Below are positions 1 through 4,716 of a stretch of DNA of 37,602 nt, in pieces. The stretch is from Chitinispirillia bacterium (GTDB lineage Bacteria > Fibrobacterota > Chitinivibrionia > Chitinivibrionales > Chitinispirillaceae). Within the stretch, counting starts at the first letter, position 1; each line of letters opens with the position of its first letter. The notes under the pieces were generated by a model that made no database searches, was not told the origin of the DNA, and was given only the letters and a program-made list of their open reading frames with translations. The stretch spans positions 1 to 37,602 of the forward strand of contig WQRV01000008.1 in NCBI GenBank assembly GCA_009786575.1, written 5' to 3'. Made by a program: the position numbers and the translations under genes.

Positions 1-66
1 TTGGCCATGCCTTGGGCATTGCCTTGGACCATACCTTGAGCCATACCCTCGGCCATACCTTCGGCC
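1..66 (-). repeat. 12-bp coding tandem repeat (EGMA/QGMx)
   Basis: About five degenerate copies of a 12-nt unit encode Glu/Gln-Gly-Met-Ala in the tail of the Rpn remnant. Such EG-rich repeats at the C-terminus are common in this family and vary in copy number. The array continues to the window edge. Confidence 0.6.
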
Positions 67-359
67 CTGCCCTCCTTCTTCGCCGCCCTCAGCCTCACCC
101 TATCGTCCATCTCCGCCAGCATGAGCAGCTCGTACTCGCGGCGGGTTTTCGGGTCCAGTTCGGAGTAGGCCTTCATTATGCCGGCGGCTTTTTTCAGTTC
201 GGGGCTCATTTCCGCTATCATGTCTAACTCCTCCTTGGTTTCGGCGTTTAACAGTTTAAGGCAGCGCCATAGACCGCTGCCATCGTTCTCTTTCGGTAAT
301 TTGGCTAATTCCAGCGTGTGGACCTCAATCAGGTCCGTGTGTATTTTATGTAATATAGA
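1..359 (-). pseudogene. Rpn-family nuclease, C-terminal remnant (runs off left edge)
   Basis: The minus-strand frame is open from an in-frame TAA at 360-362 to the window edge. It encodes a stretch resembling the 'sdkIEvHfLELpKl' segment of Rpn/PD-(D/E)XK transposase-like nucleases (here LIEVHTLELAKLP), then a short helical region with ETKEELDM, and a charged tail with EG/QGMA repeats, typical of this family's C-terminus. The N-terminal nuclease core that carries D...ExQ is absent, and the other two frames upstream also contain stops, so this is a truncated copy. The ATG at 221-219 is preceded by AAGGAGGAG with 8 nt between AGGAGG and the start, so a short C-terminal product could still be made. 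It resembles the intact gene at 3844-4716. The family call is by motif only; the coding end lies outside the window. Confidence 0.6.
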
Positions 360-403: not shown

Positions 404-431
404 GTAGAGACGCAATGCATTGCGTCTCTAC
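404..431. repeat. Perfect 28-bp palindrome (REP-like)
   Basis: GTAGAGACGCAATG at 404-417 is followed without a spacer by its exact reverse complement at 418-431. Palindromes beginning GTAGAGACGC are a recurrent intergenic repeat type in several bacterial phyla (from memory, for example cyanobacteria). It lies just upstream of the truncated end of the Rpn remnant and could mark the break. There is no T-run on either side, so a terminator role is unlikely. Confidence 0.7.
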
Positions 432-479
432 GGTGGGATATGCGATAAATTATTATTTATCAGTGTGCTGCTGTTGATT

Positions 480-642
480 GTCTGAACCATGATTTGCCTG
501 ATTAAAGGATTAACATGATTGCCTGCGGCGAGCCCTTCGGGGTTAAACGTCAAAAGATAACGTCAAAATCATCAATAATCCGGGTTTTGATGTTGATTTT
601 TAATCAAGGAAATCATTTAATCAGGTAAATCAAGGTTCAGAC
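480..642. mobile_element. MITE-like element with 41-bp imperfect inverted ends
   Basis: The left arm 480-520 begins GTCTGAACCATGATTTGCC and the right arm 602-642 is its reverse complement with a handful of mismatches (GTCTGAACCTTGATTTACC when read inward). The interior of about 80 bp has a further small inverted repeat (AAAATCATCAA against TTGATGTTGATTTT, around 564-600) and no open frame. Size, terminal inverted repeats and lack of coding capacity fit a miniature inverted-repeat element or a large folded RNA. No clear target-site duplication was seen. Confidence 0.55.
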
Positions 643-667
643 AAAAAAGGCGGATTGTACGCCAAAT

Positions 668-3843: not shown

Positions 3844-4716
3844 ATGGCCAAATTACCGACAGACGCGGACATCCTGCCGCCGTCAGATGACCACATCTTC
3901 AAGACCCTGCTGACGCGCCCGGACGCAAAGCGCGTCCTGATGGACGTCATATCGGCGGCGATAGAGCGCCCTGTTGTGGACGTATTCGTGCGAAATACCG
4001 AGCTGCCGATCTCGGACACCGCAGAAAAGGGCGAGCGCTTGGACGTAAACTGCACCATCGACGGCGGCGACCAAGTGGACGTGGAAATGCAGAGTTCCCG
4101 GATGGAGGAGTCTGACGAGGATCACGACCACAAAAATTTTAAAAACAAGTATGTCTATTATGGGACGGATTTGCACTCATCACAACCGTCGAAGGGCAAG
4201 AAATACGTCAATTTGGTGCGGACGTATCAAATTACGTTCTGTAGCTATACGGTTCTGCCGGACAGACCTAATTTCGTCAACAGGGCAGCGCTCCGCTTCG
4301 AGGACGGTATGTTGTTCAGCAACCAACTCAATATGGTTATCGTTGAAATGAACAAGCTCAATGATATTTTAAAAAGGCCGAATGCCGCTCTGACCTCGCT
4401 TGAAATGTGGTCGGCATTCTTCCAGTTTGCGGATAAGCCGGAGTATAGGGATATTATCAATCATATTATAGAAACAAAAGAGGAGGTAGGTATGGCCGCC
4501 ACGTTATTGCAGGAAATAAGCAAGGACGAACAGGAACGCGCACGGTTCAGGAGCAGGAGGATGTTCGAGACGGACATGGCTTCAAACATCCTTACCGCTG
4601 AGGACAATGTTCGGGTGGGGATTGCGAAAAAGATGAAAGCTGACGGGGCCGATGTCGATACAATTGCCAAATGGACCGGCCTTACGGTGGACGAAATCTT
4701 AAAACTCAACATCTGA
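3844..4716 (+). CDS. Rpn-family recombination-promoting nuclease / putative transposase
   Basis: A protein of 290 residues. The N-terminus (PPSDDHIFKTLLTRPDAKRVL, about 12-32) and the core D67 (RLDV), E81 and Q83 (DVEMQ) match the PD-(D/E)XK nuclease fold of Rpn/YhgA-like proteins, which are DNases linked to recA-independent recombination and phage defence. Residues ~160-200 carry MLFSNQLNMVIVEMNKL, the usual family mid-region, and ETKEEVG lies near 210. The C-terminus (about 250-290) is a short helical segment ending in a helix-turn-helix-like DVDTIAKWTGLTVDEILKL, common in this family. A second start, ATG at 4492, has a perfect AGGAGG five nt upstream and is in frame, predicting a 74-residue C-terminal isoform. 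The gene is flanked by repeat remnants, consistent with horizontal mobility. Confidence 0.85.
   Translation: MAKLPTDADILPPSDDHIFKTLLTRPDAKRVLMDVISAAIERPVVDVFVRNTELPISDTAEKGERLDVNCTIDGGDQVDVEMQSSRMEESDEDHDHKNFKNKYVYYGTDLHSSQPSKGKKYVNLVRTYQITFCSYTVLPDRPNFVNRAALRFEDGMLFSNQLNMVIVEMNKLNDILKRPNAALTSLEMWSAFFQFADKPEYRDIINHIIETKEEVGMAATLLQEISKDEQERARFRSRRMFETDMASNILTAEDNVRVGIAKKMKADGADVDTIAKWTGLTVDEILKLNI
4480..4494 (+). promoter_or_regulatory. Internal ribosome binding site and start codon inside the Rpn gene
   Basis: GAGGAGGT (4480-4487) followed by ATG at 4492-4494, with 5 nt between AGGAGG and ATG, in frame with the main reading frame (codon 217). This is a better Shine-Dalgarno than the gene's own GGGAG. 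For E. coli rpn genes, C-terminal small proteins from internal starts have been reported to block the full-length toxin; that this happens here is inference. Confidence 0.5.

Follow-up and report, generated by a model that had tools for sequence, protein, structure and literature searches.

A truncated rpn gene in a Chitinispirillia genome that may persist as an orphan RpnS-like unit

The truncated rpn gene and its surroundings

The rpn genes code for phage-defense nucleases. One of them, in truncated form, opens the window considered here, by which is meant the whole 37,602-nucleotide stretch (G000:C8:1-37602; contigs are cited as genome:contig, or by the contig alone for the window's own genome) at the start of a contig in a metagenome-assembled genome of 2.89 Mb and 200 contigs. 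The record series of this genome presumably derives from the termite gut and belongs to the phylum Fibrobacterota, and the closest named record with an rpn gene of the same subfamily is the Chitinispirillia genome WQTH01 (Co191P3bin71). The C-terminal part of a 5'-truncated rpn gene of the PDDEXK_2/TIGR01784 type, homologous to the intact genes on C148 and C122, occupies positions 1..338 of the minus strand and runs beyond the window into contig C15. At the DNA level it is 82–93% identical to the paralogues on C191, C148, C122 and C90, and 81–97% identical at the protein level; since homology to all four stops at position 338, the breakpoint is placed there. The minus-strand frame stays open over 119 codons, from 359 down to position 1, as the first-pass annotation had it in assigning 1–359 to the remnant, but only the part up to 338 can be counted as rpn: the stretch at 339..359 (minus strand), through which the frame extends to a stop, is unmatched in the intact copies.

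The other end of the gene lies on C15 (31,261 nt), whose last 79 nt are identical to positions 1–79 of the window, with no other contig matching at 100%. This exact overlap (1..79, minus strand) falls in the four-residue repeat region KEGRAEGMAEGMAQGMVQGNAQGMA of the remnant. When the two contigs are joined, the frame spans 149 codons from stop to stop and finishes in ...KAARAMKAEGLDPATVARITGLTPDDIRRL*, the usual ending of Rpn proteins; extended leftwards, it thus closes at a normal stop, with no frameshift just left of the window. The truncation at 338 is within the contig, while three other C-terminus-only copies, on C191, C90 and C168, each start at a contig end, probably because the assembly was cut there.

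By profile (PF12784/TIGR01784) the remnant belongs to the Rpn family. It matches PF12784 over positions 139–228 only (21.7 bits, E=1.9e-4), a score under the full-length cut-off because the gene is truncated; its intact paralogue C148 satisfies both profiles, PF12784 and TIGR01784. The nuclease core with the catalytic residues, present in the intact copies, is absent, and judged by its sequence the remnant is a fragment and not an Rpn nuclease. The earlier description of a lost nuclease core and an open C-terminal frame is therefore right on both counts, except that the nuclease domain still contributes its last 39 or so residues upstream of the ATG at 221, the ragged breakpoint lying 117 nt upstream of that codon.

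The breakpoint itself is situated at the base of a hairpin (GGACCTGATTGAGGTCC, window 314–342) with a terminator-like score on the plus strand. Directly upstream of the remnant lie a 28-bp perfect palindrome, GTAGAGACGCAATGCATTGCGTCTCTAC (404..431), a dispersed repeat with many copies in the genome, and a MITE-like element (478..644) with 43-nt inverted arms (478–520/602–644), which is likewise present in many genomic copies.

The internal start of the remnant

The ATG at 219..221 (minus strand) is the earliest start codon of the remnant frame, no ATG, GTG or TTG being found in frame upstream of it, and it would open a predicted 103-aa RpnS-like product. It is preceded by the Shine-Dalgarno (SD) sequence AAGGAGGAG (228..236, minus strand; duplex –11.4 kcal/mol), so that the remnant carries an in-frame SD and ATG ahead of its C-terminal domain, as expected of RpnS. 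The spacer is 6 nt (TTAGAC); the 8 nt first reported holds only when counted from GGAGG. The anti-SD sequence used for these energies was assumed, since a pattern search of the genome did not find the 16S 3' end. An SD of this strength (≤ –11.4 kcal/mol) precedes 1.2% of 1,093 internal in-frame ATGs of control ORFs, and 18% of those that follow a pair of glutamates.

Promoter-like sites at the remnant are at chance level (2 found against 1.7 expected). Comparison with its four paralogues and the copy from a sister species leaves four substitutions that occur in the remnant alone; all are synonymous, where chance would make about 75% nonsynonymous. Before the sister-species copy was included, the count of remnant-specific synonymous changes stood at nine; the four that are left may predate the truncation.

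Internal starts across Rpn genes

The ribosome-binding site is conserved in the relatives of the remnant, for an SD and ATG stand at the same position in true relatives that are 46–97% identical to it. The strong SD is present in relatives whose gene is intact or nearly so: AAGGAGGAATTGGACATG at the corresponding position on G002:C36, AAGGAGGAGTTGGCCATG on G005:C2 and AAGGAGGAATTGGCCATG on G006:C16. More distant relatives, at 46–50% identity, carry AAGGAGGA(A/G)TTGGCCATG at the internal start, and the closest paralogues in the same genome, C148 and C122, have a weaker SD of AGGAG only. Because strong SDs occur in intact or nearly intact relatives, that of the remnant was probably inherited rather than gained.

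The window also holds an intact rpn gene of another PDDEXK_2 subfamily (3844..4716, plus strand; 290 aa; PF12784 E=8e-29; TIGR01784 E=1e-24). It has its own predicted rpnS start, an internal AGGAGG-TAGGT-ATG (4481..4494, plus strand; –13.3 kcal/mol) that would yield a 74-aa product, and a strong internal SD is found in most relatives of its subfamily. The first-pass annotation equated this start, 3.6 kb away, with that of the remnant on account of a shared ETKEE-x2-M. BLASTP does pair the two proteins weakly (E=0.006), but profile–profile alignment with hhalign (probability 99.8) rules the equation out: the remnant-type ETREELDM falls opposite EYRDIINH of the intact protein, and the Met217 that ends its ETKEEVGM falls opposite Ala215 of C148, an offset of 11 residues downstream from the site in the remnant. 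As the two starts are at non-homologous residues in this alignment, their likeness is, on the sequences, convergent, and the presence of an SD and ATG in both genes makes the internal start more interesting. Other Rpn subfamilies have yet other peptides at this point (KKEVFNM, GGGKPM, GGDIM and KEEDFM), with AGGAGG or GGAGG still preceding the methionine.

More broadly, an internal SD and ATG at –9 kcal/mol or stronger occurs in 21 of 32 non-redundant Rpn genes as against 23 of 122 control ORFs (Fisher p=8e-7), the controls having been picked mechanically, so that spurious frames may be among them; 18 of the 21 sites are 50–125 residues from the end of the protein. Shuffling of synonymous codons gives a median p of 0.21 for the Rpn genes and 0.66 for the controls (p=1.5e-5). 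Taken gene by gene, only 1 of the 32 Rpn genes falls at p<0.05, because glutamate-rich stretches readily give SD-like codons.

Solitary tails among the relatives

A search of 24 genomes of the family with tail queries, which were used because PF12784 alone misses C-terminal pieces, gave matches only in the eight genomes of this genus and in one relative, G022. Most of the apparent solitary N- and C-termini are contig-edge cuts, and such cases were left out. Away from contig edges, solitary RpnS units are frequent: there are about 25 solitary C-terminal frames (genus plus one relative) and about eight tailless pieces from the N-terminus or middle, counts that are strong but approximate, the depth of the N- and C-terminal searches being unequal and tandem copies not being independent. 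Solitary N-terminal remnants are, at that resolution, not equally common.

The points at which these tails begin were placed by local alignments (at only 66–70% identity for G006:C92). In nine of them, on G004:C114, G007:C145, G005:C51, G005:C14 (two), G007:C155, G007:C127, G000:C80 and G006:C92, homology to the nearest intact gene starts 3–18 nt upstream of the internal ATG; eight of the nine retain an SD-like sequence with a different peptide upstream of it, and the one on G007:C127 has lost its SD. Eleven others, including the remnant in the window (117 nt), start 24–125 nt upstream of the internal ATG, two start 199 and 371 nt upstream, and three begin inside the tail without an internal start.

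Tails directly behind an intact rpn gene are found on G000:C80, G005:C14 and G005:C51. On G005:C14 (L188/L157, 15329–16745) an intact 341-aa rpn gene of the Transposase_31 type is followed by two tandem tails, each opening with GGAGGAGGCAATACCATG; in the genome of the window itself, on G000:C80 (L175:465-1620), a 61-aa frame opening at AAGGTGGTTAATATG makes a second tail downstream of an intact 315-aa rpn gene. A solitary RpnS-like tail on G004:C114 (L110:1244-2072) overlaps the end of an ORF resembling the YafQ/RelE toxins (Pfam E=3e-4, below the cut-off), which is itself preceded by an antitoxin-sized ORF, possibly making up a three-gene toxin–antitoxin cassette. Two longer frames carry such tails in fused form: a 423-aa rpn frame on G004:C131 (L180) in which its own C-terminal tail is present as two in-frame copies, as though a downstream rpnS had become part of it, and a 575-aa frame on G022:C122 (L178:115-1839), helicase-like by eye, with an Rpn-type tail at its end (EIAKKLKTKGIDTDTIAETTGLSVDDISQL).

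Interpretation

We consider it probable, with a fair measure of doubt, that the remnant arose from an rpn gene through loss of the first ~165 codons, which left a complete internal rpnS unit. A rearrangement would have removed those codons and spared the SD, the ATG, a dimer helix with the four-residue repeats, a two-helix tail and the stop. In intact genes of the same kind, the ribosome would also initiate at the internal ATG and make RpnS, which would pair with the full-length nuclease and block it. The remnant would still yield a free-standing RpnS-like protein of 103 aa, presumably able to dimerize and to act as an antitoxin. This makes the suggestion of a surviving orphan antitoxin-like relic plausible for the remnant, in that it agrees with the published RpnL/RpnS system and with relatives whose tails are cut at the internal SD and ATG; those relatives support it far better than does the remnant, whose own ragged 5' end looks like a deletion. 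As a genus-wide pattern, the same reading is well supported.

A more far-reaching proposal, which we put forward tentatively, is that free-standing and duplicated RpnS modules are a feature of the genus: units of SD, ATG and tail from several unrelated Rpn subfamilies would have been copied out exactly at the ribosome-binding site and arrayed behind intact rpn genes or another toxin (the YafQ/RelE-like ORF on G004:C114), forming an antitoxin bank with different repeat numbers. Clearly less probable than the orphan-unit reading, but not negligible, is plain decay, in which a recent break beside dispersed repeats left a C-terminus that is intact because little time has elapsed and that is not expressed. 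The ragged 5' end at –117 nt rather than at the ribosome-binding site, the palindromic and MITE-like repeats immediately upstream, the absence of a promoter signal beyond chance, the small number of remnant-specific substitutions and the further ragged fragments on G005:C74 and G006:C16 would all be accounted for in this manner, but decay sits poorly with the retention of the whole RpnS unit in most truncated copies of the genus, nine of them cut at the ribosome-binding site, and with the lack of any nonsynonymous change among the remnant-specific ones. A chimeric assembly within a repeat, as the source of the truncation at 338 or of the C8–C15 join, is very improbable, for although contigs break inside rpn copies throughout these assemblies, and the window starts at such a break, the boundary at 338 is internal to its contig, C15 alone shares the exact 79-nt overlap, and internal truncated rpn copies occur in other assemblies too.

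The tails cut exactly at the internal ribosome-binding site form a natural record, legible without expression data, that points to a real and separately useful internal start. They also carry the idea of RpnL/RpnS antitoxins over to a group of Fibrobacterota that is uncultured and across several Rpn subfamilies with internal starts at non-homologous residues, and the tandem tails of different repeat number would allow a test of antitoxin stockpiling against related nucleases.

Comparison with known Rpn systems

The rpn genes of Escherichia coli and Clostridioides difficile make RpnS from an internal start; in E. coli, RpnS binds and inhibits the full-length Rpn, with specificity set by repeat number, and it can also be a separate gene, as in ypaA, which is rpnE-S (Zhong et al., PMC10327210). 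The remnant has five or six four-residue repeats and C148, C122, C90 and C191 have fewer (the tail of C157 is beyond its contig end and outside this comparison), so that by the published rule poor pairing with these four would be expected. Since its repeat number differs from that of the complete copies seen, the remnant product would most likely leave the resident nucleases unsilenced, unless an uncut cognate exists, and the remnant would then be the orphan of a toxin lost or unseen.

A PADLOC search matched nothing, and a PDB sequence search for RpnA-S gave no match, a fold search being used instead. The model of the G004:C114 tail, of low confidence (pLDDT 67), has a long helix followed by two short ones in an RpnA-S-like topology, and the PDB fold that it matches best is RpnA-S of E. 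coli (7TH0; E=1.3, probability 0.91, rmsd of 0.9 across 37 columns). Proteins with DUF4351 (PF14261) are separately encoded RpnS in some species (PMC10327210); the PF14261 profile matched neither the remnant nor the single solitary tail that was checked.

With RpnL/RpnS as known from RpnA–E of E. coli, the Chitinispirillia genes share the PD-(D/E)XK nuclease, an internal SD and ATG near the C-terminal quarter, and a tail in which four-residue repeats occur together with HTH-like helices, 7TH0 being the best fold match, at E=1.3, of the low-confidence model of one such tail; they differ in being of the PDDEXK_2 and Transposase_31 types. The predicted RpnS of the remnant is, at 103 aa, longer than the 5.4-kDa RpnA-S, and some 50 residues separate the ATG at 221 from the first repeat, as against the published 8–20. 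With the free-standing rpnS genes (ypaA and the second rpnC-S downstream of rpnC) the remnant has in common an RpnS-like frame standing as its own gene, but it is without an adjacent cognate and retains 117 nt of the nuclease end. The remnant and the tails of its relatives fit the RpnL/RpnS gene-within-gene system, in which such free-standing genes have been described before.
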